Positions 1 through 26,040 of a stretch of 41,467 nt of DNA are shown one piece after another. The stretch is taken from positions 1-41,467 of the forward strand of contig BRYA01000578.1 in assembly GCA_030267965.1 (NCBI GenBank), given 5' to 3'. The position numbers and the translations under genes were made by a program. A model generated the notes under the pieces. It was not told the origin of the DNA. It was given only the letters and a program-made list of their open reading frames with translations, and did no database searches. Every line of letters begins with the position of its first letter. The first letter of the stretch is position 1. Source of the stretch: Triparma columacea. Taxonomy: Eukaryota > Sar > Bolidophyceae > Parmales > Triparmaceae.

Positions 1-100
1 TTACTTCTCTTTACTTCTCTTTACTTCTCTTTACTTCTCTTTACTTCTCTTTACTTCTCTTTACTTCACTTTACTTATATTCACTTCTCTTTACTTCTCA
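1..100. repeat. Decamer simple repeat (ttacttctct)n
   Basis: About six perfect and then several decayed copies of the 10-mer ttacttctct open the window and run off its left edge. The sequence is not a TTAGGG-type telomere. It adjoins two further simple-repeat blocks, so the first 600 bases are non-coding low-complexity DNA. Confidence 0.95.
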
Positions 101-185
101 TTACTACACACTACCACACACACATACACATACCACTCTACCTAATACTCTTCTTTTCTCTACTCTCTTTTCTCAACTCCTTTAA

Positions 186-462
186 CACACTCACACTCTC
201 ACATTCTCACACTCTCACACTCTCACACTCTCACACTCTCACACTCTCACACTCTCACACTCTCACACTCTCACACTTCCACACTCTCACACTCTCACAC
301 TCTCACACTCTCACACTCTCACACTCTCACACTCTCACACTCTCACACTCTCACACTCTCACACTCTCACACTCTCACACTCTCACACTCTCACACTCTC
401 ACACGCTCACACTCTCACACTCTCACACTCTCACACTCTCATACTCTCATACTCACACTCAC
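186..462. repeat. Octamer microsatellite (acactctc)n
   Basis: More than 30 head-to-tail copies of an 8-mer acactctc, with a few single-base variants. The plus strand is almost free of G here, so the strands are strongly pyrimidine/purine skewed. Open frames across it are translation artefacts of the repeat. Confidence 0.95.
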
Positions 463-598
463 ACTCACACTTACACAAACACAAACACAAACACAAACAC
501 AAACATAAACACAAACACAAACACAAACACAAACACAAACACAAACACAAACACAAACACAAACACAAACAAAAATACAAACACAAACGCAAACACAA
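463..598. repeat. Hexamer microsatellite (acacaa)n
   Basis: About 20 copies of acacaa (acaaac in another register), joined to the preceding octamer block through a few acactc units. It ends about 110 bases before the stop codon of the START-domain gene, so it lies in or near that gene's 3' flank. Confidence 0.95.
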
Positions 599-706
599 GT
601 CTCCCCACTCTGTGCCGATCCCGAGGATACGCCTGCTATAATATTTACAAAATATTCCCAACAATAACAAATCAAATCAATTTCTCCTACAAATGTTGCT
701 GCCCTA

Positions 707-3700
707 TTAATCACTCCCCATCCCCTCATCCTCTACCGGCATAACACTGCTTACTTTAGTCTTTCCACCTCCTACCTTTATTATATCTCCACCATCAGCG
801 CCTCCAACACTTGCTCTCCTAATACTTGCTCTCACAGCGCCTGCTAGACCACCCTCAGCTTCAGCATCAACACTTGCCCTCCTCAAACTCTCTCTTCTTC
901 TAGCATCTCTATCTGCTGGAATGAAGTCAACTGGGACCCTAGCTTTAAATACATCAGTAAACCACTCTGGCTGCTCCTCTTCCCATTTAGCCCAATTTAG
1001 CTCAACCCATTTCTTAACTTCTCCTTCAATTGAGACCCAATGTTTCCTAGATCTGTCTAAAACTTCAAACTTAGTTTTGTCACTTTCTCCTTCAAGGAAA
1101 AATGCCATAGAATAGTCCTTTGATCTCTTTGTACTCCAGAAGGTGTGCCAGTACTTTCTCTCAATATTCCAAAAGAAGACAGCAAAGCATAGGGTAGTTG
1201 TTGGTATGAAAATGCGCGCAATTGATGATGCAATACTGATAGCCTGCTTATCTACATAAGGTGAAGCTACATATATGGACATTGGAAGGCTTCCCATTGT
1301 CAACAAAAGACCAAACAACCAATAGGCTCCTCCTACCTCATTAGGATGTCTAAACTGCACAATTGAAGTGAAGTCAACAATGATCTTTACAACCACTCTC
1401 ACTAGAATGCTACTCACAATTTCTATGTTGCCCCCGAATGGCAACCAGTACCAGAAGTCACCTCTCAATATCTTAACCAAAATATACAGGCCAAGATCGA
1501 CTTCAATGTAGACAAAAGCCCAACTACCCCCAATCAACCCAAGAAGAAGTATTGTTGTACACCTTATTAGAAGCATTCCTGCAGTGAACAGCAACATAGA
1601 CAGAAACACTACTGTTCTCTTGCTTGCTTTTGCTGGTATATATCCATAGAAGTCTGGTGCATATTCTCTCCTTTCAGGGTCTGTGTCCCAGTCATAACTA
1701 ATTGTTGCAGAGGCAAAGCCTGTTGTAATTGCTGACACTGCAACTGAAAGCCATGCTGAAGTTCCAACATCTTTGTCACTTGTTACTATAGCCATAAGTT
1801 GGATAATCACTCCAGGGATTGCCTCAGCAAACATCTCACTAACTTTCATAAGTGTCAGCTCTATCATTGGGTGAATTACAGTCCCAACCTCTTGCTTTGC
1901 TCCAGTTGCCACCCTGTATGCATCAACAGCAGGCTTGTACCCAAGCAAGATTGGAATCCACTCCCGCACCACCCTCTTCATACCCAACTTCCTGTTTTGT
2001 GCCCAGACACAAAGCATCTGAAACCCAATTGACACTACCAAGCTTGCCAAAGATGCCTTAAAGTATCCATACTTCTTATCTTTCCTAAACATGTACGTCA
2101 CATACACATCAGTCAGCAAATCAGTCATGCTTGTGACAGCACCAAAGGTTACCCTTGCCTTCAAGCCAATCTTTGAGTTCTTAAATAGATCCACAGCAAT
2201 TGTCTCAATCATTGGCCTAAACCATTTGTATTCTCTCATTACTTCTTGTACTTCAGTGTATTGATGGGCCCACTCGTCTACAGCATGCTTTGCAGTAGCT
2301 GTTTGCAGTGTAATCATCTTCAGTGTGCTCCCAATCTCCAATCCTCTTGCTTCCTCCAAACTCCCAACTTCTCCTTCGTTTGTCGCTCGTCTTCTCAGCT
2401 TGTTACGAACAATGGCACACAACATTGTTTTGACAAACCTATTTTGCTTCTCAAGCTCTTTCATTGCCCTATTTTTTGCCATGAACTCCTTTACTACCGT
2501 ATCTTTAATACCTCCAACTTTCATCTCCTTGAGCCTTGACATCAACTGTTCTCCAAACCTCCTGCCATCTTCTTCATTGGCTTCTGAGCTGCTTAAAAGA
2601 TTTTCAAAGTACATGGCACTATTACTAGCAATATTAAGGCGCTTCCTAGCACTAATCTTTGCAGCAGCCTTTGTGATCTCCTTTCCCAGCTCCAGCCTTG
2701 TGACAATATTTATCTTGGTCTCTTTTTTACCAACCCTGCAAAATCTTACTGCAAAATCTTCTCTTGCTAGAGACTGCAACCCTCTCTCTTTGATTGCTTC
2801 ACTCATGATAACAAGAGTGCTCTTATCTGCTCTATACAAACGCATCTTTGAGACAAAGTTCACATTGAAGCTTTGCAATGTTGTTTTGATGCACTCCTTT
2901 GCCTTGACCTCTAAATCGAAGTCGTTACCTGCATTTGCAGATTCCCTCACTAAGCCCTTGGTCTGAAGCCTGTCAACATCCCAAAAGTATGCTGCTGCCT
3001 CCTCAAAGCCTATCCTCAAGGTAACTGAAATCATCCCCCAGCTCTTTCCTCCTCCTTCTGCTCCAACAGTTGCTCTAATCATGTCAAACAGTGGCAAGAA
3101 TTTTGTGTCACCCATCACCTTGAGATCTTTCATCTTCTTGACAATCTCCATCCTCCTTGGCTTGTTAATCTCATTGGTCTTATCAAACTTTTGGCGTAAT
3201 TTTGATGCAGCAGTTAGGAACTTTGTACCGAACTTTTCAATGACTGAATTGGGTATGGGGCTGTGAAAATCTGCTTGTGATTGTAGTGTAGCTCTTGTTT
3301 GTGGAACACCACCCAAAGGAGGTAAAGATTCAAACATCCAGATTGTGTGCACAGTGCCAACAACATGGCCAAACTTGACGGGGTGTTCTTTTGCCAAGTC
3401 ATCTGTTCTCTGAATATTAATCCACACAACATCTCTGCCGTCCACAGTTTCCCTTTTCCATGTCATCTTGGTTCTGAAGTCCCTGTAAGCAAATCCAGGA
3501 ATGCCAAGATCTCTAATGGAGAAGTAGTATAGTGAGTGATTGTTGATGTTCTTCACAGTCAAGTCAACTATACCATCTTGTTTTAGTGTTTTCATTGCAT
3601 AGCGGCTGTTGATGTCTAAATACACATGAGCTGCGCATTCATAAACATTTGCATCTACTATTGTAGTTGCTACTGCCACACCATGGGAATCTCCATCATT

Positions 3701-6325
3701 TTTGGAGCCTCTCATCTCAACATGTTCATCTGGGCTTTCGAGTTCACGTGACCCAGATCCTTCCTTGCACTTCTTGTAGAATTCCTTTGCACTCCTGATA
3801 GCCTTCTCCTCCTCTTCTGTATAAGTTTGCTGCTCTTTTTCTATAATTTTGGCAAGCAACTCTAGTGTAATCGAGTCCTTTTCATCATCAGTTTTTGCAA
3901 ACTTGTTCCTGATGTCAATAATGCTCTTTGCATAGCTATATGACAAGCGATTCATGACAAATTTGGGCACAGAACCCTTGATATCAACCCTTGAGGCAAA
4001 TGTGACGCGGCACTGAGGGGTTCCCTTATCAGTTGGTAGCGCTTCAAACATCCATGTCGTTGTTGCAGATGCAAGAATAGTCCCAGAGCTTAATGGGAAG
4101 CGTGCAATGCCTGTTTTTGCACGAGCTATTCCCGATTTTGCTCGTTTATTACCTGCACTCAATGGGAAGTCATTATCCAACAGGTTGGTGTCTTTGTACA
4201 CAGTCCAACAGACCTTGTCTCCTTCCTCCTTTTGCCAGCAAATTAAGCTTCTCCACTCCCTATCAGACAATCCTTGCACCCCAAGACTCCTCCTGTTTAA
4301 ATAAAGTTGTGAGTGGTCATTCAATTTCTTTGTTTTGATCGCCTTGTACTTCTTTCCAAGCTTGGCCTTTCTCTCCTTTGAATCCTTGATGAAATCATAT
4401 GCCACGCATTCTTCGAAGGAAGCGTCTACAACTGCTTCAGCCATACCAATCACTAGGCTTTCACCATCAAGGTGCCCAGTTTTCAACTTCACCCTGGGAT
4501 CTGGAAACTTCGCATCTTTGAAGGTCTTGCTTGCCTTGCATTTCATGTAGAATTCCTTGCCTTCCTTGATTGCCTCCTCCTCCTCATCGGTGTAATGTTG
4601 GGGCTCGTTCTTTATAATATTTTTGAGAGTCAGCAGTGCTTCCATGTCTATCTCGTCGTTGCTCTTGATTTTAGGGTGCTCTTTTGGCACACCGTCCTGG
4701 GCAGTGCCTCCGGACGTAGTCAGCCCCTTCTTTCCATTTCCCTGAGGCTCAACATGCCCGATCTCGATGTCGTCGTCCATGTCGTGTACGATAGCCTCTT
4801 CTTCGTCGAGCCCCTCGTTGCCGTAATCTTTGGTAACAATTCGTTCGTAGTCCTCTGAGTCTGTTGAAGGAGAAGCTTTTGTAAGGGCTGCAGTGCCCAT
4901 CTCTTCTGCAGCAGCCCTGAGCGCATCGTTCTCCTTCATCAACTTATCGTTGATATCTTTGAGGTTCTTTGTCTCAACGAGGTGTTCGGCGGCGACCCTT
5001 ACCGCGGATGCCTTGAGTTCTGCAATTTCTATCCCTTGAGCATTGACGAGGTTCGCTAATCTTTCGATTTCCTCCTCCATCTTTGCAACGTTTACAAAGC
5101 TGTCAGGATTCATTGGTACGGTTGAAGCAGTGGTCGTACGGCCGGTGGACGGCGGCACGACACTAAAATTATTACTGTCCGCAACCAGACCGGCGGCGTC
5201 CTCATGACCGTTTTCAGAGTCTGCGGTAATTGCGATTATGGCGTTTGTAAGTCAAAATGAAAAAGAATTCCACTCGATGATGCATGCGGTCGCCGTAGAA
5301 GCGCCCCACGCGGTCGCCGCAGACGGAACCCATGCGGTCGCCGGGGACGGATCCCATGCGGTTGCCGGGGATGGATCCCATGCGGTCGCCAGAGACAGAT
5401 CCCATGCGGTTGCTGCAGACCGGCGTGTACACGCGTGCGCCGCGGCTGCCGCCCGTCGAGCTTGGCGCCGAGGGCCAGGCCCTCCGCGAACGGCTCCGCG
5501 CGTTCCTCACGCAGGCAGTGAGAAAAAACTACAAAGTTTCAACGCGCCCTCCCGCGACTCTCCCGCTCTCCCCTAGAGTATTTATATGTATTTTTTTATC
5601 CGGCGCTCGACGCACAACTTACCTCGTCCAGTGTCCTCATGTGACATTTCAGTTGCTGCAGAGGAAACGACAGAGACGGAAAAGTGAGTAAAAGTGGCAA
5701 AGTTCATCTTGTCCTCCCACACATCTCCCGTCCTCTCCTAAAGTATAAAGATGTTCTTTTCCTCCTCAAGCTCTCGACGTTTACCCACCTCGTCTGGCTT
5801 CCCCATGATCATTTTCAGATTCTGCGGGTGTGGAAATGTTGATGTTTTTGAGTTTTTTTTAATCATTACATCAGGCTTCCCAACGACCTATCTTATTCCC
5901 ACTGCACCACCAAATTGGCAACCTTCTCATCTGACCCCCTACGCAAACTCACCTCGTCCGGCGTCTCCATGAGACCTATCAATATCAGCAGTTGCCCCAA
6001 GGTTGACAGCATAGTCATTTGCCTTAACGACATCAGCGGCACTTTTGTGGTCTTCGGTTGCCTCAGTAGCAGACTGATCCGCGGCGGAATCAGCGGCTGC
6101 TGCAACGAGGACAGCAAGGTCAGTTGCAGCACTGACAATGTCAGCAGTTGTGCCATCGTGCGCAGTGCTCTTGACGGCGGCAACAAGGTCGTTAGCTGCC
6201 GATGCTGTAGATGTAAGATCGGCAGTATGTTGAGCTCTTGTTGCCCTCAAGTTCGCCTTCAATCCAGCTATCTCCTTGTCCCTCTGCTTCAGGAGAATGG
6301 TTAAATCCATCTCACTGTCGGTCAT
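707..6325 (-). CDS. Multi-START-domain, multi-pass membrane protein with 33-nt mini-exons
   Basis: Model: exons 6325-5953, 5821-5789, 5655-5623 and 5220-707, all joined in phase 1, giving 1650 residues. An unspliced reading would have to start at the GTG at 5158, but the frame stays open upstream to a good acceptor at 5221. The N-terminus has two coiled-coil stretches (exon 1 and just after residue 170). Two START-like lipid-binding folds follow (about 380-560 and 640-825), each ending in a WMFE..LP..G.PQ.R pattern; a third, weaker copy lies at about 860-1045. Residues 1170-1500 hold six to eight membrane helices; a [10 protein letters not shown] segment and an E.IPGVIIQL segment resemble XK-related proteins, which is tentative. 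The tail has two RRAS sites, likely kinase targets. A 21-nt duplication gives [14 protein letters not shown] near 4100-4150. Probable role: lipid sensing or transfer at a membrane. Fold calls are from pattern only. Confidence 0.75.
5308..5427. repeat. 24-bp minisatellite inside an intron
   Basis: Five consecutive 24-bp units of the form ccatgcggtcgccggggacg, each diverged by a few bases, lie inside the longest intron of the START gene. Because 24 is a multiple of three, frames on both strands stay open through it (HAVAGDGS on plus, RMGSVPGD on minus), but flanking splice sites put it in an intron. Confidence 0.85.
5623..5960 (-). repeat. Tandem exon+intron units with 33-nt mini-exons
   Basis: Two complete 33-nt exons (5821-5789, 5655-5623), the end of exon 1 (5985-5953) and the start of the last exon (5220-5188) encode the same 11-residue motif: [33 protein letters not shown] and [11 protein letters not shown]. 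Each complete unit has an AG acceptor before it and a GACGAG|GT donor after it, all in phase 1. The intron starts after the two mini-exons are alike (both have cgtcgag, then a purine-rich ggagag..gggag tract). Intron lengths are 131, 133 and 402 nt. Tandem copying of a roughly 165-bp exon+intron unit explains this. Confidence 0.8.
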
Positions 6326-15049: not shown

Positions 15050-17918
15050 TCATACTTGTGTATGTGTGTGCCCCTCATGGTCGTGGGCGCCCCCCGTCCC
15101 GTTCTCCACCTCCCCCCCCCCCTCCCCTCCCCCAGTCCCTCCCTCGTTGACGAGAGGCTGCATCTGCAATACGTTCTCGGTTTCACTGCAGTTCGGGTCC
15201 TCGCAGCAGTGCCCTGAATGGAGAACGACTCCCTTTCTCATGGGCGGAAGTTCGAATTCCTTCCTGTAGTCCTTCCTCTTCAATATGAAGTCCATTGTGT
15301 TGGTCACTGCGCTTCCGCTGTCATACCTGTTGCAGAACTTCTCCTTGCTGTCATCCAGTAACCAGGAGTACCTCTTCCAGTTGATTCTCTCGTTTGTGGT
15401 GATGTTGCTGGTCATATTTCCGAGTTGCTGTGCTAAAAGAAATCCTAGTCCGCATGAGCACAAGACAGCGCACAGAGTCATGGTCAACATCCCGAAACCC
15501 CTATCCCCGTAAAGCCCCTCGAGCACCTTGCACCACTCAGCATCCATGCCCCCCTCCTTGAGATACGCCAGCAGGTTGATGATTCCAAACGCGGACCAGG
15601 TGAGGTGAGCGGCAACCTGGAAGAACACAAACACCATGAAGATCCTGTGGTTCCCGAATCCCACTGCGGTATCGAGCCAGACGCAGTAGTGGTCGTGCCT
15701 CGCCACGAGGAGCCCAGTCGGAGCGTCAAACTTTGCCCTGAGGGGTTTCTTCACTAGAGTTGTCTTGCACCATTTCCTGGAGTCTGGCTCCTGACCAGTC
15801 TTGGCCACCTCATCCAGAAGATCGGTGTAGGTGAGGTTCCTATTGGCGTACACGACCCCAGGGTCCCTGTAGACAAACACAAGCACGGCCCAGCTCACAA
15901 TCATGAGCACAATAAACGTAAAGCTGGCCATGAACAAAACGGGGGTGTTCTCTGCGGCTTCCGCCATGAGCACGAGGCTCGACCACCACCTCCCTCCCGC
16001 ACCCTCGTTCACAGGTCCGACGGTGAAACTACCTCCCTCGCCCTTCAAGAGATTTGGCTTAATCACGACGATGGCAATGCACACTGAGAGGAACGCGAGA
16101 GCGCAGCCGAACCAGAATCCAATTGCCAATTCGTTCGCCTTAAGCAGTTTGGGGATGAGTCCCCCCATCTTGATGACCCTGCCCTCCTTCTCGCTCATTG
16201 TCTTCTCCCAGTACCTGATGTTCCTGGTGAGGGTTGTGAACCCCTTGTACCCAACGAACACAATGAGGCCGTTAGCCCACCAGGGGAGCACAACCATTGC
16301 GACCCACACCCCGTAAACCAGGGCTGCGATGAAGAACAAATACCGAGCCCTCGTAGGGTTGTCCCTCATCAACGCGGGATTCACCCCCTTCTCCGACTCG
16401 TCATCGTCCAAGCCGCTCAGGCATCTCTGCGGGGAAAAGGTTGCGTTAGCGTTGAGAATACGATATCTATCTGTTACTCTCGGTTGAGCATCCTGCTGCT
16501 CAACTTCTCACCTGAACCTTCATACATAGGCTCTCAGCCCCGCTCTCTAGATCCCCCCCCTCTTTCCCCTTCCCTTCTCTTCCCTTCCCCCCCTTCCTCC
16601 TAACGACACTCCCGCAACAGCCCTCCTCGAACCCGCTCTCCACTCCCATAGTCGCCCCCGCCCTGTACTTGGAGGCCTTCCCCGGGTTGACCATCATGGC
16701 GTCGAAGAGCATGTAGTTGGATAGCGCGAACATCGCCGCGGAGTTGCCTTCCTTATCTTTCTCCATGGGGTCCATCCCGAGCGCCGTGAGGTACGCAGCG
16801 GTCTCTGGCTGGCCCTGCTTGGCGGCCCAGATCAGGCAGTTCCTGCCGTTACCGTCCTTGTGCTCGGGCCTCAGGCCCCTGAACATAAGGTACTCGGCGA
16901 CGTTGGTGTGACCCTTGTAGCAGGCCCAGTCGAGGGGGGAGTGGTCATCGATGTCGTTCTGGTTGAGGAGCTCCGTGGCGACTTGGGCGGGGCAGAGACT
17001 GAGGATGAAATGTAGGCACCAAAGGTGACCCCCCCTCGAGGCGTTGCTGACGATCGTGTTCTTGTTGGTGTCCATCGCGCCTAGGTTCGCCCCATACCTG
17101 ATTAGGCACTTAATGACGGGCAGGACGCCCCTCGTGGCGGCCCTGATGATGGGGGTCTCCTCGTCATCGTTCCTGCTGTCGATTATTTTGTACCCATCAG
17201 CATGCCCCCCGGTCTGCTGCATGATGAAGTCAATGACCTGGCCGTCATCTGCAAGCACCGCATAATGAAGGGGGTTGTTTCCTTCGCTGTCTTTGGTCAT
17301 AGGGTCCACGCCCCTGGCCTTGTACATTCCCCAGATCAGAGCCGTCACAGGAAGGTTTCCCTGGCTACAGGCCACGTGCAAGGTGTAGTCAAAGCCGCTC
17401 TGGGGGTCCTTGTAGATGACGGAGGAAAGGTCGAAGACGGGACTCTCGAAACCTTCATCGTCGTCTTCGTCAGATGAGGTCTGAGGGGGGGGAAAGGGGA
17501 GTTGTGGGATGGTTAGGAGGAAGAAGGGTACGATTTGGCCAAATTTGGCCCCAATTTCAAGCCTCGACAGCGTAATATCTCTCTTAAGCAACCCTTTCCT
17601 CAGCTCTTCCTTCCTTTCCACTACTCCATCGAAGACCCTTCGCATGTTCTAATCCCCCCTCTTCACCTCACAGCTTCCCACCCTCCTTACCTCCTCGTCA
17701 CTTCCGCTATCTTCCTCATCCTCACTCATTTTACTCTCATCACCACCGTTGTCCTTTCCCCCCATGGTCTCCTCATCTCCGTTGTTATCACTGGACCCTC
17801 TCAAAAGGTGCCCTGGGGTGTTAGGATCGGCAGCGGTGATCGACGAGATGTCCAATTCCGACGGGGAAGTCGGTCGGGAGTCGGGACCGACGGGATAATC
17901 AGGATTAGGTGTAGCCAT
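15050..17918 (-). CDS. Ankyrin-repeat DHHC-type S-acyltransferase (HIP14/Akr1-like)
   Basis: Model: exons 17918-17691, 17480-16512 and 16426-15050, all phase 0, giving 857 residues. Residues 1-95 are acidic and disordered. About six ankyrin repeats follow (about 100-330; HVACSQGNLPV, NPLHYAVLADDG, SPLDWACYKGHTNVAEYL). The C-terminal half has six membrane helices in the 4+2 layout of HIP14/Akr1. The catalytic motif lies between helices 4 and 5 and reads D644-H-Y-C, as in yeast Akr1. The cytosolic TTNE motif (TTxE) and an NRYDSGSAVTN.MDF segment match the conserved C-terminal parts of this family. The enzyme should palmitoylate cytosolic cysteines, probably at the Golgi, with the ankyrins picking substrates. 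Odd: most zinc-binding cysteines of the DHHC domain are missing (FDAPTGLL where HC..C..C is usual). The gene is divergent from the AlkB-SRA gene. Confidence 0.88.
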
Positions 17919-18378: not shown

Positions 18379-21300
18379 ATGGCTTCAGACACCACTCCTA
18401 TCTCCCCCAACGGGACTGAATCAGGAGAATCAGCAATTAGAAATTCCCCGACTTCTTCATCGCTCTCTGATTTTCTAATTGATGAGGCATCTTCCTATCC
18501 AAAGCCTTCAATTGGAGAAGATCGTATTCTAGGGAAGAAGAGATTATGGAATGGGACGAAATTTGGTCCATGGATAAATATAATGGCCTCCGGTGAGAAA
18601 GATACTATCCAATACTACCATCTCAATTGTACTAACCCCTTGATGCTTAGAGGCGACTTTAGTAACACGAAACGGGGAGAGTATGCTTCGGTTTCAGCTC
18701 AACCTCCACCGAGGTGGCCCTCTAAACCTCTTCCCCAACATTCTTGCAGAAGGGGAGCTTGACGTTATCAAGGAGACCATGGCGACCTGCAGGCTGTACA
18801 GGCAGTACAGGTTTCACACCTATTCCGAGCCCCGCGTGCACGTCATGTTGAGCAGGAACGCGTCGGCAGGGGAAGGTTACTGCTACCACTCTGTGAAGAT
18901 GAAGTCCATCCCACTGGAGTGCGTGAGGGAGGTGGAGATGCTGGAGCAGAGGTGGTCAGGGGGCCTTGGGCTGGAAAGTGGCTTCAACATCGGCGTGGAC
19001 CTGATCTGCTATAGGTGAGAATGTGTGTGTATCAGTGTGTGAAATCAAGAGCTCAGAGCTGCACCGTAACAAGCAACAACCACTAACGCAGTCCTCCTCG
19101 CTCCCGCTTTGCTTCGCTCTCGCTCGCTCAACAGGAACGGGATGGACTCCATAGGCTGGCACGCTGACGATACGCAGGTGAGAATATGGTTGAAAGTTTC
19201 ATTGCATCTATGTAAGGCGCGACGACTGGCGACTGACACCCCCCGCAACCCGCAACCCCCCCCCCCCCCCCCACCAACCCCTGAATTGCCCTTTCAGAGC
19301 GAGACCAACGTCCTGGGCGTCGTGGTCGAGTCCAGGGCCTCCCGTCCTGTCTGCATCCGCCCCAAAGGTCCCAAGGTGGCCTACAACGTGGGGGACGAGG
19401 AGATCGAGCTATACATGGGAGAAGGGGATGGGTACGAGCTTACGAGTGAAGTGCAGGACCATTATGAGCACTGTCTGCCAAAGAGGAAGGAGGTTTCAGA
19501 AAGGAGGATGTGCATGATATTCCGCCACGGCAGGAGGAGGTCAGTGGAGAGGGACAGCGGAAAGCCCTGCGACCCGGCGGAGTGGCGGAGGTTCGGGTTG
19601 CACGAGGCTGGCAACGTCTCGGATTGCCTGAGCGCCCTAGTCGACGAGGTTGCCCAACAGTGCGAGCAGGGACCTCAGGATATACTGAAGGGAGCGGAGG
19701 GGAGGTGTGGGGTCAATTTCGGACACCCTACAGAGATATCGGGAATCACTGAAGGCTCCCTGACGAGCAGAACGGAGGTCTATCAGACTTTTGCTCACAA
19801 CAGCGACCAGAGGGGAGTCTCTGGAAACCTCGTCGCCGGTGCAGACGCCGTTGTCGTTGCCAGAGTCGACGGGAATGTTCGTGAGAGGGACGGTCTGAGC
19901 TGGCTCCGGTACACCTCAATGAGGAAGCAGGGCGGCGGCGCCATGGCAGTCAGCTTCAAAAACGGGAGCCCCATAAGGGTTTTCAGGAGCAGCTCTGCGA
20001 GCGACACTAAGTTCAGGCCCGTGATTCACGAGCGCTCATCAGGGCACCAGGCCGCTGTGCTCAGGTACGACGGGATCTATAAGATCGTGAGGATGATTGA
20101 CAATGAGGGGCAAGACACGGTGGAGTTGCCTCCTCCTGAACAAGGGGAAGAAAAGCCGCAGTGGACCTTCTTCTTGGATAGGGCACCGACCATCGACGAG
20201 TTTGACGGAAGAGGCCAGTGGAAGGATTGGAAGCTCGAGTACTGCAACCATATGCCCCTCAAGGACCTCTGGCAGCGGATCCAGGCTCTGAACAGGATTC
20301 CGGAACAAGATATAACCGAGGTTGTTCCTCACGTAATGGAAGAAGTCAATATGGTGATGCAGTCGGATGCCTCTGCTGTCAGGGCGATATCAGCTTGCGT
20401 GAACGACCTGGTGAACGCAGCCATAGGGAAACCAAGTAACGCAGGGAAGGTCTACAATCACGAGGTATACAGCCAAGCATGGTTGAAGGAAAAGAAGCAA
20501 GAGTGGGGATACGAGCGCTCTGAGAAGAGAATCGCAAGGACGGTGAATAGGCAATGGGTGAGGCCTGTCGTATCGTGCTGCCTAGCTAACATGTGTATGG
20601 AGTTAGAAAGAAGGGAGTTGGATGTTAGGGACTGCGTAGAAACGGTGCTTTCCGACGCAGTCGACGAAGTAGTGATAAGGTCGACGACCATGGTTCAGGA
20701 CAAGGAGACAGAATTCGGGTCTTGCTTTGGAACCTGGCTCAAGACAAGAAAGATCGAATGGCGGAAGGCTCGTCTTTCGAGTTTGCTCCGCGAATTCGAT
20801 GGGGTGATGATGGAGGACGAGGAACAAGAGTACGGCTTTGTGGAGAGCTTCCCCTTCGTCGCGAACGTTGGCGGTGGCAGTTTTTGTGAAGACAAGAAGC
20901 GAGATAAGCCGTTGATTGTGCGAACACCGTACCGGAATTTGACGGGATCTTATGCTGCACCATCGCGCCCCGCCACTGACCCCTTCAGCCGAGAATACAC
21001 CATCATGAAGAACTCCATCATTGCAGAAAAACTGAAAAGTACCGACCCTCTACTCGCATGCACCGTTAGCGTCAGCGTCAAAGGAAAACTCTTGGAAGGT
21101 GTACTTCCCTGCAGTACGGCTTGGTCAAGGATCAGGGGCAGCAAGTTGGTGACTGTGGAAAAGTTGAAGCTGGCAATGAGGGAGTGGCAGAGGAAATTTT
21201 TGGAGCGAGGTGAGCATCAACAGCATTGGGCAAGATATTATATATATATATATATGCATATAACACAGCCTTCCAGTCGCTCGATTCTAACGCATCACCA

Positions 21301-23036
21301 CAATTTCCTTCCCCCGACACGCTCCGCTTGTTGCAGTTGAAGCTGCGAGGAATGACGATGACTTCATGAAGAAAGTGAAGTCCTCCGAGAAGAAGAAGAA
21401 GAGCAAAGGGCTGGCAAAGTCAAGGTACACGTGCGTCGTGGTGTCTAGGTCGAGAGGGGACATATTCAAAATTAGGTCCGTCGACGACAGTTTCGAAGGC
21501 GAAAAGGAGTTGGATGCAGAGGAAGGGGACTGGTTTTACGAGGCCATCGACTTCGGAGATGAGGGTATGCCAGTCGCCCTACGCGCTGGCGATCGGATCT
21601 GCGTGCACTTCCCGAAAGATCCGTCAGCACTTGTCGACGATGAGGAGGTGAGGTTGGAGGTGCAAGGGTTGGAGGGCATGGGGAAACGATACTTGTGCAC
21701 TTGCAGGGTTGCCGACGACGGAGGGTGGGAGGTTCAATGTCTAAAAAGGAAGGACGACGAGATCGAGGTTACAGTCCCTGTGGATGAAAGAGCAGGGGAA
21801 GGAGGTCTTATCAAGAAAAAGGCGGCACCCAAGAAGAAGGAAAAACTAGAAGAATACTTCGAGAACAGCTTCCTGTTCAACCCCAAACATGACGCGTGGT
21901 GCTTCGCAGACGTCAAAAGGTTCATGGGAGAAGGGGCTAGAGAAGTCGTTTCGGGCGATAAAGTTTGGATATGCTGGCCTAACGTGGAGGTGGGAAATAG
22001 GGGAAGGAGGGTGGCAAGGAGAAAGAGCAAGGCAGTGAAGAGGAAACCCAAGTACACGAAGGCAGTGGCGGAGAAGGCCAAGATCGTGATTAAGAAACCA
22101 GAGCTAGAGTTCAAGTTCAAGGTCAAAGATAGGGTCGAGGCGCGGTTCCATGGTTGGAAACCTTGTGGCCCTGACAAACATCAGGTGTTGACGATGTTCA
22201 GTGGCGAGATCGTTAAGGCTTACGCGAGGTCTGGGAAGCAGAGTTACGAGATTCATTTCGACGACGGAACGAAGGATTCACGTGTGATGGAAGAGCACAT
22301 ACGGCTGGAGGGTGGAGGGGAGGGGGGAGGTTTTAGTAGCCCAAAGAGGAAAAGGATAAAGAAGGAGAAGGTCAAGGCGAAGGTCAAGGTTGAGGCGGAG
22401 GACTTCGTGGAGGGGCAGCGCGTCGAAGCTCTATGGGAGGCAAAGAACGGGGGGGAGGAGTGGTACGGGGGGAGGATAATCGCAGCGAAGGAAAAGAAGG
22501 GTGCGAAAGTTACTTATGACGTTATTTACGACGACGGAGAGACGGAGGGGGGGATAGAGCCAAGGTTCATTAGGAGGGAGATTCGGGGGAGTCGGGGGAG
22601 GGGGGGCGTCGCTGTCAAGATCGAGGGGGGGGGTTTCATTAAGGAGGAGGAGGAAAGGAATGTCTTGGAAGAAAATCCTTCAAAGTACAACCCAAAGTCT
22701 AACAAGAGGGGTAAAGGCGGAAGTAGCAGCAGCAGTAGCAGCAGCAGGGGCGGCAGCAGGGGCGGCAGCACGGGCGGTGGTTTTGCACCTGTCACACCTT
22801 CACCCTCAAAGAAGAGAGTTCGAGTCTCTGTTTTCAGCTCCGGCGATGAGGTTGACGCAGTTTGGAGGGGTGGGGAGGGTAGGACGTCATGGCACCACTG
22901 CGTGGTATTGAAGAAGCAGGAGAAGAGGGGTGGGAGAGGCGTGTTCTACGACCTCCGTTACGAGGACGGTGACATTGAAATGGGGGTAGAGGAGAGGTTC
23001 GTTAGGGAGAGGCTAAGGAGGGGGGGGAGGAAATAA
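18379..23036 (+). CDS. AlkB-SRA-triple Tudor fusion protein (2OG-Fe(II) dioxygenase with methyl-DNA reader)
   Basis: Model: exons 18379-18592, 18651-19014, 19135-19177, 19298-21209 and 21337-23036, phases 1, 2, 0 and 1, giving 1410 residues. AlkB dioxygenase, about 90-290: the iron triad is H202-x-D204 (GWHADD) and H265 (YEHCLPK), and the 2-oxoglutarate arginine motif is R277-x5-R283 (RMCMIFR); all are present. SRA/YDG domain, about 345-500: FGHP.EI.GI.EG, QRGVSGN..AGADAVVV, GSPIRVFR and RYDGIYK (463-469), the hallmark of UHRF1/KYP-type 5-methylcytosine readers. Residues 500-1090 are unrecognised, helical and charged. Three Tudor-like modules follow at about 1105-1165, 1199-1260 and 1344-1405, each with a W/F-rich start and a Y-x-I/L-x-Y/F-D/E-DG core. 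Lys-rich linkers suggest a nuclear protein. Inferred role: oxidising alkyl marks or damage on methylated DNA in chosen chromatin. The 43-nt third exon carries the HxD motif. Confidence 0.85.
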
Positions 23037-23160: not shown

Positions 23161-24453
23161 TCATTTCTTCTTACCCCTACCATACTTGCCCTTCTTCCCC
23201 TTCTTGCCCTTCTTCCCCGTCGCACCTGCTCCTTCCGCTACTCCCACATCCGCTCCTCCCCCCTTCGTCCCCTTCCCTGTCTTGGATCTTTCCTTGACCA
23301 TTGCCTCGCTTTCCCCCCTTTCGTTCAGAGGTCCTGTGCACTGTACCCTGTGCTCCCTCCAGTGCTTGAGCTGGCACTCCCTCGAGCAGTAGGCGACAGT
23401 ACGGCAGGGACACATATGGAGCTTGTCGCGCTCCTTGGCAGTTAGAGCCTCGCAAACAAAGCAGCAGAAGGGACGGCCTTGAAGGTAATGTTTCGTGATG
23501 TTGGTGATTGTAGGATCGCGATGGGAAGGTGGGAAAGAATCAAATTTGTCTCGAAGTACGTCGGAATCGGGCTTTCCGAGATGAAGAAATGTTGCGAACA
23601 TCTTTATTGCGCCATCTCTACTAAGCCTATCGTGTCCTCCTTTGCACGCTAGGTGGCAGTGACGAAACACATCATCCACGTCGTTGGTGGTTGGGATAGC
23701 ACCGCGCGTGAGAAACAGCCTGCATATGTCGGGTGCTCCATAACTCATAGTACGAGTAAGTGGTGAAAGTATTTCTCCACTTGTAGGGTGATTTATTGTC
23801 TTGTTCACATTTGCTCCATGATCAAGAAGTGCTATGGCCTGATCAATGTGTCCCACTTGAGCAGCAGACATTAAAAGGTTGTAAACGCCTTCCCTCGCCC
23901 CTTCCACTCGTAGGTCCATATTAGGGTCAAGTCCATGTTCTAAGAGCAATCTCAAAATTGTTGAATTGTCACTATTCCTCATTGATATCTCTGCGGCAAG
24001 GAACATGGCTTCCTTGTTGTCGAAGCCGGCCTCTAAGGTAAGCTTGACCATCTCAACGTTTTGGTGATCTGAGGCTTTTGTGAGAACTGAAATTATTAGC
24101 GAATTCCTGTCTCTACAAACGCCTAACAAAACCTCAGGACCATGTTCCTTGACATACCCCTTGATACGATCCCAGTCTTGCTCACAAGCCCTCATCAAGC
24201 ACAACTCCTGACCGTCTGTCAAACCGTCCAAACGCCAACCAACACTGCCAGCAGTGTCCACAAGGATGTCTGCGAGGATCGCCAGGCAGAATGCATCAAA
24301 GCCTCCACTTGCAGCACCCCCCCCCCCTCCTCCTGCAGCATCCCCTCCCTCACCCCCTGCATTACCACCCCCACTTCCTCTAGGGGCACCCCCAGTCCCG
24401 CCACCTGCAGGACCACCTCCCCCGGGTGGAGGCCCATCTGATCGTGATTCCAT
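23161..24453 (-). CDS. Ankyrin-MYND zinc-finger protein, paralogue 1 (Gly-rich N-terminus)
   Basis: Single exon, 430 residues. After MESRSDG there is a 45-residue Gly/Ala-rich insertion absent from the other three copies. Then come the shared parts: LTDGQELC..A.EQDWDRIKGY, about five ankyrin-like repeats (120-300; e.g. STILRLLLEHGLDPNMDL and AIALLDHGANVNKT) and a C-terminal MYND finger (about 345-385; CCFVCEAL, CPCRTVAYCSREC, HWREHRVQC). The tail is a basic GKKGKKGK..KKK run, possibly nuclear. MYND fingers bind proline-rich partners or accompany methyltransferases; no SET domain is present, so this is probably an adaptor. Here the second cysteine pair is C-x-C rather than the usual C-x2-C. 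It shares promoter and 3' flank with paralogues at 24756, 32665 and 34126. Confidence 0.9.
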   Translation of the reverse strand: MESRSDGPPPGGGGPAGGGTGGAPRGSGGGNAGGEGGDAAGGGGGGAASGGFDAFCLAILADILVDTAGSVGWRLDGLTDGQELCLMRACEQDWDRIKGYVKEHGPEVLLGVCRDRNSLIISVLTKASDHQNVEMVKLTLEAGFDNKEAMFLAAEISMRNSDNSTILRLLLEHGLDPNMDLRVEGAREGVYNLLMSAAQVGHIDQAIALLDHGANVNKTINHPTSGEILSPLTRTMSYGAPDICRLFLTRGAIPTTNDVDDVFRHCHLACKGGHDRLSRDGAIKMFATFLHLGKPDSDVLRDKFDSFPPSHRDPTITNITKHYLQGRPFCCFVCEALTAKERDKLHMCPCRTVAYCSRECQLKHWREHRVQCTGPLNERGESEAMVKERSKTGKGTKGGGADVGVAEGAGATGKKGKKGKKGKYGRGKKK

Positions 24454-24580
24454 TTTTGAGCGAACCTGCCCTAAATTTGAGTTTATAGCGGCAAATTACG
24501 ATGTGAAAGTGATCAACAAAGCCTTGAAGCTACTCCACTTTGGCAGAAGTGTCGTGTAGGTGCTAATATTGGAGTCAAAC
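24454..24580 (-). promoter_or_regulatory. Conserved promoter of MYND paralogue 1
   Basis: A TATAAA box (plus-strand tttata, 24482-24487) lies about 30 bases before the ATG, so the mRNA leader would be very short. The block out to 24580 is nearly the same as upstream of the other three paralogues, including a distal element tattagcacctacacgacac on the gene strand. Confidence 0.65.
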
Positions 24581-24755: not shown

Positions 24756-25907
24756 TCACTTCTTCTTACCCCTATTATTCTTGCCCTTCTTCCCCTTCTT
24801 GCCATTCTTCCCCATCGCACCTGCTCCTTCCGCTACTCCCACATCCGCTCCTCCCACATCCGCTCCTCCCCCCTTAACCCCCTTCCCTGTCTTGGATCTT
24901 TTCTTGACCATTGCCTCACTCTCCCCCCTTTCGTTCAGCGGTCCCGTGCATAGCACCTTGTGCTTCTTCCAGTGTTTGAGCTGGCACTCCCTCGAGCAGT
25001 AAGCTACAGTGCGACAGGGACACATTAGGAGCTTGTCGCGCTCCTTGGCAGTTAGAGCCTCGCAAACAAAACAGCAGAAGGGACGGCCTTGAAGGTAATG
25101 TTTCGTGATGTTGGTGATTGTAGGATCGCGATGGTAAGATGCTAAAGAATCGAATTTATCTCGAACTACGTCGGAATCGGGCTTTCCGAGATGAAGAAAT
25201 GTTGCGTACATCTTTATTGCGCCATCTCTACTAAGCCTATCGTGTTTTCCTTTGCACGCGTGGAGGCAGAGACCAAACACTAATTGCACGTCGTCGGTGG
25301 TTGGAATAGCACCGCGCGTGAGAAACAGCCTGAAAATGTCGCGTGCTCCATACTCCATAGTACAAGTAAGTGGTGAAAGAACACTTCCATCATCAGGGTT
25401 AAACATTATCTTGTTCACATTTGCTCCATGATCGAGAAGTGCTATGGCCTGATCAATGTGTCCCCATTGAGTAGCAGACACTAAAAGGTTGTAATTTCCT
25501 TCCAACCCTTTGCATTGTAGGTCCATATTAGGGTCAAGACCATGTTCTAAGAGCAATCTCAAGATTGTTGAATTGTCATATTTACTTATTGATATATTTG
25601 CGGCAACGTACATGGCTTCCTCGTTGTCGAAGCCAGCCTCTAAGGTAAGCTTGACCATTTCATCATTTTGGTGATGTGAGGCCTCTGTGAGGACTGAAGT
25701 TACCCTCCATTCCTCATCCTTATGAACGCCTAACAAAACCTCAGGACCATGTTCCTTGGCATACCCCTTGATACGGTCCCAGTCTTGCTCACAAGCCCAA
25801 TCTATGCACAATTCCTGACCGTCTGTCAAATCGTCCAAACTAGATACTGCCACATTTGTGGTCTCTGATGAATTGTGTGACGATTCTCGCTCTGATTGTG
25901 ATTCCAT
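24756..25907 (-). CDS. Ankyrin-MYND zinc-finger protein, paralogue 2
   Basis: Single exon, 383 residues. I place the start at MESQSERESS (25907) because it matches the other copies and sits 28 bases after the conserved TATA box; the frame is open a little further upstream but that part is promoter. Order: Ser/Thr-rich leader, DDLTDGQELC, about five ankyrin-like repeats, then a MYND finger with the same cysteine and histidine ligands as its neighbour (CPCRTVAYCSREC) and a Lys-rich tail. It differs from paralogue 1 mainly in the short N-terminus, in ankyrin surface positions, and by having GGADVGGADVG in the linker before the basic tail. It lies head-to-tail with paralogue 1, 302 bases apart. 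Confidence 0.9.
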   Translation of the reverse strand: MESQSERESSHNSSETTNVAVSSLDDLTDGQELCIDWACEQDWDRIKGYAKEHGPEVLLGVHKDEEWRVTSVLTEASHHQNDEMVKLTLEAGFDNEEAMYVAANISISKYDNSTILRLLLEHGLDPNMDLQCKGLEGNYNLLVSATQWGHIDQAIALLDHGANVNKIMFNPDDGSVLSPLTCTMEYGARDIFRLFLTRGAIPTTDDVQLVFGLCLHACKGKHDRLSRDGAIKMYATFLHLGKPDSDVVRDKFDSLASYHRDPTITNITKHYLQGRPFCCFVCEALTAKERDKLLMCPCRTVAYCSRECQLKHWKKHKVLCTGPLNERGESEAMVKKRSKTGKGVKGGGADVGGADVGVAEGAGAMGKNGKKGKKGKNNRGKKK

Positions 25908-26040
25908 TTTGAGCGAACCTATCCCAAATGTAAGTTTATAGCGGCAAATTACGACGTGAAACTTATCAACAAAGCTTTCAAACTGCTCCACGTAGGCAGA
26001 AGTGTCGTGTAGGTGCTAATATTGGAGTCCAACCAAAACT
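25908..26040 (-). promoter_or_regulatory. Conserved promoter of MYND paralogue 2
   Basis: The TATA box (plus-strand tttata, 25935-25940) is 28 bases upstream of the ATG. The block up to the ctaatattgg element near 26020 matches the other three paralogues' promoters with few substitutions. Confidence 0.65.

Follow-up and report, generated by a model that had tools for sequence, protein, structure and literature searches.

What would an AlkB dioxygenase do with a DNA-methylation reader and histone readers on the same chain? The question is raised by a gene at positions 18379..23036 (+) of contig BRYA01000578.1 from Triparma columacea, whose 41,467 nucleotides are the window analysed here. We found that the gene joins into one frame, that its AlkB domain keeps the catalytic residues and, in a close relative, folds like ALKBH2/ALKBH3, that its SRA domain has the SRA fold with most of the pocket residues, that a Tudor part follows, and that the AlkB–SRA core is conserved in a family and under constraint. 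We infer from these features the binding of modified cytosine and of a histone mark, the substrate, and the link to DNA methyltransferases. Our preferred reading, held a shade short of an even call, is an ALKBH2/3-type enzyme on modified cytosine in chromatin, which would most likely reverse 3-methylcytosine (3mC) beside 5-methylcytosine (5mC).

The five exons form one reading frame of 1410 residues with zero internal stops, as originally predicted, and the four introns (58, 120, 120, and 127 bases) all have GT-AG ends. Exon 4 lies within a 756-codon open frame that would arise by chance with a probability of ~6e-14 on a simple independent-base estimate. A paralogue on contig C704 (L009:4327-6189) has AlkB and SRA in a single uninterrupted 621-residue frame, which reads straight across the positions that introns 2 and 3 occupy in the window gene and thereby confirms the exon 2-3-4 joins. 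The conserved exon 1 motif matched a single protein among 21 relatives (P0005, E 4e-5), and similar motifs are visible by eye upstream of AlkB in further relatives in the family alignment. Whether exons 4 and 5 might belong to separate genes, a doubt raised with the prediction itself, was checked against P0021 of Triparma strigata, which carries both stretches in order: exon 5 (residues 845–1070) aligns at the corresponding place with a score of 102 (300 shuffles: mean 40, maximum 66), and the exon 4 tail aligns ahead of it with a score of 70, against at most 53 when shuffled. The exon 4 tail is moreover repeated at 98.9% in P0003, which comes from other metagenome contigs. We consider the predicted gene model sound, with its joins backed by homology.

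The joined protein has the intact AlkB core that had been proposed, with the HxD...H metal ligands H202, D204, and H265 and the R-x5-R motif (R277 and R283). Across the readable family proteins, the window protein included, H202 is kept in 67 of 75, D204 in 63 of 75, and H265 in all 81, and each of the two 2-oxoglutarate arginines is kept in 79 of 80. The Pfam family 2OG-FeII_Oxy_2 matches residues 98–275 at E 8.7e-6 and 26.5 bits (curated cut-off 31.2); of ten relatives scanned, three fall short of this cut-off, and the other seven exceed it with 31.5 to 54.1 bits. The fold comparison suggested at the outset was run on a close relative and gave the AlkB double-stranded beta-helix fold, with ALKBH2 and ALKBH3 as the closest structures. 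Their scores of 21.9 and 21.7 are clearly above those for enzymes of other marks, at 16–21% identity in the fold alignments. The AlkB part is ALKBH2/ALKBH3-like by fold and profile. TET does not figure among the fold matches listed, an absence that carries no weight. We rejected membership of the TET family, since Tet_JBP is not among the Pfam matches of the window protein up to E 1.

The predicted SRA domain is borne out both by the Pfam family SAD_SRA (residues 363–480, E 4.2e-9, above the curated cut-off) and by an SRA fold. Among solved structures the top match is TagI (E 1.8e-13), a 5mC/5-hydroxymethylcytosine (5hmC)-dependent endonuclease, and the second is UHRF1 (5.7e-6). The TagI paper assigns its SRA a thumb, Gln35, and a pocket of Tyr55, Asp58, Tyr67, and Thr68 (PMC6212794). 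In the window SRA, Q378 corresponds to Gln35 by alignment, and E403, Y412, and T413 correspond to Asp58, Tyr67, and Thr68 by spacing; all these assignments come from alignment and spacing rather than structure coordinates. In profile-based family rows an acid stands at 403 in 97 of 101, Gln at 378 in 59 of 93, Tyr at 412 in 74 of 99, and Thr at 413 in 80 of 99; counts from a motif search were set aside because it fixes Q, Y, and T by construction. The first pocket aromatic (UHRF1 Tyr466, TagI Tyr55) is N400 by spacing in the window SRA and is Tyr in one of 97 ungapped family rows. The NKR finger of UHRF1 is absent by sequence, its place taken after Y-T-S by a short loop, R-K-Q-G-G-G, whose R-K-Q resembles the K-K-Q that TagI has according to the same partial text (PMC6212794). 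As read from the alignment, then, the pocket retains its acid and one of its two aromatic walls, and the thumb is retained as well, but the other wall is lost. The proposed role as a 5mC reader is likely: the kept acid, Tyr, Thr, and Gln make binding of some modified cytosine probable, while two features of UHRF1 are missing.

Three Tudor-like modules had been proposed. On the whole protein Tudor_5 scores 43.2 bits (E 3.5e-11), above the cut-off, with its best stretch at residues 1204–1248. Scored as separately cut pieces in Pfam, this middle copy is firm, the first is probable, and the third is weak. A scan of ten relatives gave no Tudor_5 match, in contrast to the window protein. Between SRA and Tudor, residues 506–844 hold a W-L-x-x-R-K-x-x-W-R motif common to the Triparma relatives, and the 216 residues opening exon 5 have no Pfam match up to E 0.5. 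In P0021, residues ~1050–1120 have by eye the look of a linker-histone (H15) winged helix, with no Pfam match at E 0.05.

The genome (37.9 Mb, 789 contigs) has two SRA matches, the window gene and the C704 paralogue, and a genome search with the C704 paralogue found nothing beyond these two. They are 64% identical across 501 codons. The non-synonymous divergence between them, counted by hand, is 0.20 in AlkB and 0.21 in SRA but rises to 0.48 in the linker and to 0.54 beyond SRA; synonymous sites are saturated. The AlkB and SRA domains are both under constraint. By eye the C704 frame ends in an acidic tail, and no Tudor was noticed in it, the frame not having been scanned alone.

The domain-architecture search that had been suggested placed the AlkB–SRA core in a family. 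Searching with the C704 protein brought up 20 relatives, and both domains were precomputed for 12; the window protein (region 45–1130) gave at least four, all AlkB–SRA; and a profile search gave at least 123 proteins at E 1e-8 or better, with both domains in 43 of the 120 listed in the precomputed domain table. The window-protein and profile searches scored the 8000 candidates sharing most words, and the family is therefore probably larger than listed, these sizes being lower bounds. Named sources among the matches listed are the bolidophyte Triparma; the diatoms Thalassiosira, Stephanodiscus, and Cyclotella; and the pelagophytes Aureococcus and Chrysophaeum. The nearest named relatives of the window protein, among these matches, are from Triparma, in keeping with a heterokont source. 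An extra chromatin-reading domain occurs in 22 of the 43 listed two-domain relatives: 11 chromo/MSL3-type, eight PHD-like, two CW, and one SGF29. In P0002 an F-box-like domain stands at the end in place of a chromatin reader (residues 510–553, 25.8 bits, above the cut-off) and would link the AlkB–SRA core to ubiquitin ligases. Transcript evidence among the relatives includes P0043, an MMETSP protein that carries both domains and belongs to a clade with an altered SRA pocket.

In a tree of 52 members and 292 columns the window gene groups with P0001 and P0002 (support 100/100), and this group joins the Triparma proteins, P0005, and P0012 (99/95). Adjoining it are a clade of 12 with the pelagophytes (100/99) and a clade of 28 with the diatoms, weakly supported (80/66). 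The phylogeny suggests an ancient AlkB–SRA core in these algae, passed on mostly by descent, with reader modules that vary.

We next consider what else the genome holds. Five other AlkB loci have as best matches ALKBH1, ALKBH8, ALKBH6, a 6-methyladenine (6mA) demethylase, and none; ALKBH2/3 comes first in none of the five. A separate ALKBH2/3 was not found in a six-frame family search of the 789 contigs, and a looser run (E up to 10) gave no new AlkB locus. The gene C142 is a homologue of the Cryptococcus enzyme 7r76 (E 1.7e-190 across 753 residues; table label Rad8), which is DNMT5. C267 resembles DNMT3 (E 3e-23) and has a CW-like finger slightly under the cut-off, and C378 and C467 are further cytosine methyltransferase matches. 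We also found one HhH-GPD match and one UDG-family gene with the GQDPYH motif of ordinary UNG; a TDG-type glycosylase was not seen, this being the single UDG-family match in the genome.

We favour the removal of N-alkyl lesions because of the ALKBH2/3 likeness, the apparent lack of a second ALKBH2/3 gene, and the presence of methyltransferases. Methyltransferases reportedly make 3mC, and ALKBH2 is said to co-evolve with them. The window gene would encode a chromatin-bound ALKBH2/3-type dioxygenase whose SRA domain would grip a flipped, modified cytosine and whose Tudor domains would bind a histone mark. Held in these two ways, the AlkB domain would stay on methylated DNA and reverse N-alkyl damage there, chiefly 3mC made by DNA methyltransferases in error and also 1-methyladenine. 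Of the two roles originally put forward, repair is thus the better supported, by the ALKBH2/3-like fold and profile, the lack of a Tet_JBP match, and the absence of an ALKBH2/3 best match among the five other AlkB loci found.

Several points weigh against this repair reading. The AlkB match of the window protein lies under the Pfam cut-off. In the six-frame AlkB search the AlkB domain of the window gene itself, split by introns, was absent at E 0.001 and appeared only at E 0.63, so an intron-rich ALKBH2/3 elsewhere could escape it; for this weakness of the search we lowered our confidence from an even call to just below one. Without the first pocket aromatic and the NKR finger, the SRA may bind something else. 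Finally, the fold leaves the substrate unfixed, since ALKBH2, ALKBH3, and AlkB oxidise 5mC in vitro according to a review (PMC8508711).

That last observation favours an AlkB-based eraser, in which SRA would locate 5mC and AlkB would convert it to 5hmC and more oxidised forms, taking the place of TET in algae without that enzyme. This is the least unlikely of the alternatives. It would agree with the lack of any Tet_JBP match in the genome, an absence that carries no weight and is not proved by a search that gave none in the control genomes either, and with the missing first aromatic, whose conformation is said to decide between 5mC and 5hmC in other SRA domains (PMC6212794, in part). Against it, the closest folds are the N-alkyl repair enzymes ALKBH2 and ALKBH3, and the 5mC activity given for ALKBH2 in the accessible text is small, at most 9% product, with that of ALKBH3 larger (PMC8508711). 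The UNG-type motif of the only UDG-family match also speaks against an eraser, and an SRA gripping a flipped 5mC would hide the same base from the AlkB site. A broader form of the idea is that ochrophyte algae built a second, independent active DNA demethylation, in which AlkB, recruited by SRA and by swappable histone readers, would oxidise 5mC by the chemistry for which animals use TET; we regard this as unlikely.

Alternatively, the protein may be a UHRF1-like maintenance adaptor whose SRA and Tudor domains guide DNMT5 to hemimethylated sites, the dioxygenase serving a side or regulatory activity. The DNMT5 homologue and the restriction of SRA matches to the two AlkB-linked genes are consistent with such a role, and in Cryptococcus DNMT5 reportedly has the help of a pared-down homologue of UHRF1 (PMC13297926, in part). 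A diatom branch also bears on it. In a clade of nine (100/100) the SRA thumb and pocket are altered, and six members (96/96), P0030, P0033, P0035, P0037, P0042, and P0054, also lack the metal ligands while retaining SRA and chromo-type modules. These six are probably catalytically dead paralogues, and a non-catalytic role may accordingly exist in the family. Their altered thumb and pocket nevertheless argue against an adaptor, as do the metal ligands retained in most readable family members and the missing NKR finger. No RING, ubiquitin-like, PHD, or SET domain is among the Pfam matches of the window protein up to E 1, and membership of the UHRF1 family was rejected because RING, ubiquitin-like, and PHD domains are unmatched beside SRA. 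We consider the adaptor improbable.

The diatom branch also touches on whether the two domains act together. Among the 52 proteins with all tested residues readable, out of 76 with both domains, the pocket is altered in seven of seven ligand-lost proteins and unaltered in 40 of 45 ligand-intact ones (altered in five). On the tree, one trait changes twice and the other three times, a single diatom clade accounting for most of these changes, and a sign test has no power; because independent events are so few, we take this as no stronger than a hint of cooperation between enzyme and reader.

It is doubtful, and more so than the adaptor, that the protein demethylates another mark, either DNA 6mA or methylation of RNA at chromatin: ALKBH2/3 score clearly higher in the fold comparison, the SRA fold suggests cytosine marks, and no MT-A70 match was found in the genome, in an uncontrolled search whose negative carries no weight. 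That splicing wrongly joins adjacent genes is hardly credible: the window gene model comes from genomic DNA and its third Tudor is weak, yet a fusion artefact was rejected on the uninterrupted C704 frame, the joint presence in Triparma proteins of the stretches encoded by exons 4 and 5, the exon 4 tail in P0003, and the splice-join evidence.

Features of the gene at 18379..23036, in window coordinates
Feature	Position	Strand	Basis
Whole gene, five exons	18379-18592, 18651-19014, 19135-19177, 19298-21209, 21337-23036	+	GT-AG introns; homology at joins
N-terminal conserved motif, residues 52–68, GKKRLWNGTKFGPWINI	18532..18582	+	Exon 1 match to P0005; family alignment
AlkB (2-oxoglutarate-Fe(II) dioxygenase) domain, residues 98–290, split by introns 2 and 3	18728..19546	+	
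Metal ligands H202-x-D204, exon 3	19160..19168	+	Family conservation
H265 (third ligand), R277/R283 (2-oxoglutarate site)	19469..19525	+	Family conservation
SRA/YDG domain, residues 346–505	19712..20191	+	
Q378 (thumb), E403 (pocket acid), Y412 and T413 (pocket wall)	19808..19915	+	Alignment or spacing vs TagI Gln35, Asp58, Tyr67, Thr68
Middle region, residues 506–844, no Pfam domain; tail common to Triparma proteins	20192..21209	+	
Exon 5 start, residues 845–1062, no Pfam domain; homologous to Triparma P0021	21337..21989	+	Score 102 vs at most 66 shuffled
Tudor-like copy 1, residues 1109–1160, probable	22128..22283	+	Tudor_5 E 2.9e-4, 21 bits, under cut-off
Tudor copy 2, residues 1204–1248, firm	22413..22547	+	Tudor_5 32.2 bits alone, cut-off 31
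Tudor/Agenet-like copy 3, residues 1347–1405, weak	22842..23018	+	Agenet E 0.031 only

The left end of the window (1-5251) holds a repeat gene family with a 1514-residue open frame (707-5251, -). Positions 400-2800 have 49 other long matches in the genome, many in the first 5 kb of their contig. CpG is at 0.04–0.48 of expectation in bins over 501-4500, with TpG raised, and at 0.65–1.05 in 13 three-kb bins from 3001 on. Judged from position and composition, the repeat looks subtelomeric and methylated; the CpG depletion is the trace that methylated CpG in repeats would be expected to leave rather than a measurement of methylation. Downstream of the AlkB–SRA gene, the 444- and 419-residue frames at 23161-24495 and 24756-26015 (-) seem by eye to be a tandem duplication; they show ankyrin-like repeats and, at the C-terminus, a MYND-like zinc finger. 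Upstream, two adjoining frames at 15050-17648 (-) resemble by eye a gene for a DHHC palmitoyltransferase with ankyrin repeats.

DNMT5 is one of several enzymes that methylate DNA in diatoms and related algae. According to a paper on these enzymes, those that lack chromatin domains may depend on accessory proteins, for example of UHRF1 type, for a link to histone marks, and such accessories are yet to be investigated (PMC9998398). The AlkB–SRA family is a candidate for such an accessory: a single chain combines a likely modified-cytosine reader with an oxidative demethylase and a histone reader. Under the repair reading, DNA methylation would be physically tied to the undoing of the damage that it causes; under the eraser reading, there would be a new demethylation route.

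The original prediction held that no described protein has this set of domains. We found no paper on an AlkB–SRA fusion in the open-licence literature, which leaves out most subscription papers, and the accessible portions of two papers on plant and microalgal AlkB proteins do not mention an SRA domain in one. The full set thus has no literature match in that search, whereas the AlkB–SRA core is that of a family and is not unique. Relatives bear the database labels 'YDG domain-containing protein' and 'alkylated DNA repair dioxygenase AlkB', so the pieces have been annotated automatically before. The kind of dioxygenase is already known; the architecture appears new, and the function is predicted.

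Among known systems, human ALKBH2 and ALKBH3, the DNA alkylation repair dioxygenases, are compact single-domain enzymes, whereas the window protein has SRA and Tudor attached to an AlkB domain that aligns with theirs at the low identity given above. TagI, an SRA-HNH modification-dependent endonuclease, cuts DNA with its HNH nuclease, and its Tyr55 is not kept in the window SRA. UHRF1, UHRF2, and the plant SUVH proteins differ in the RING, ubiquitin-like, and SET domains and the NKR finger that the window protein does not match, and it has an AlkB dioxygenase instead. The likeness to TET and JBP is one of concept, an Fe(II)/2-oxoglutarate enzyme alongside readers of DNA methylation; in place of their Tet_JBP domain, the window protein has an AlkB-type match and fold.

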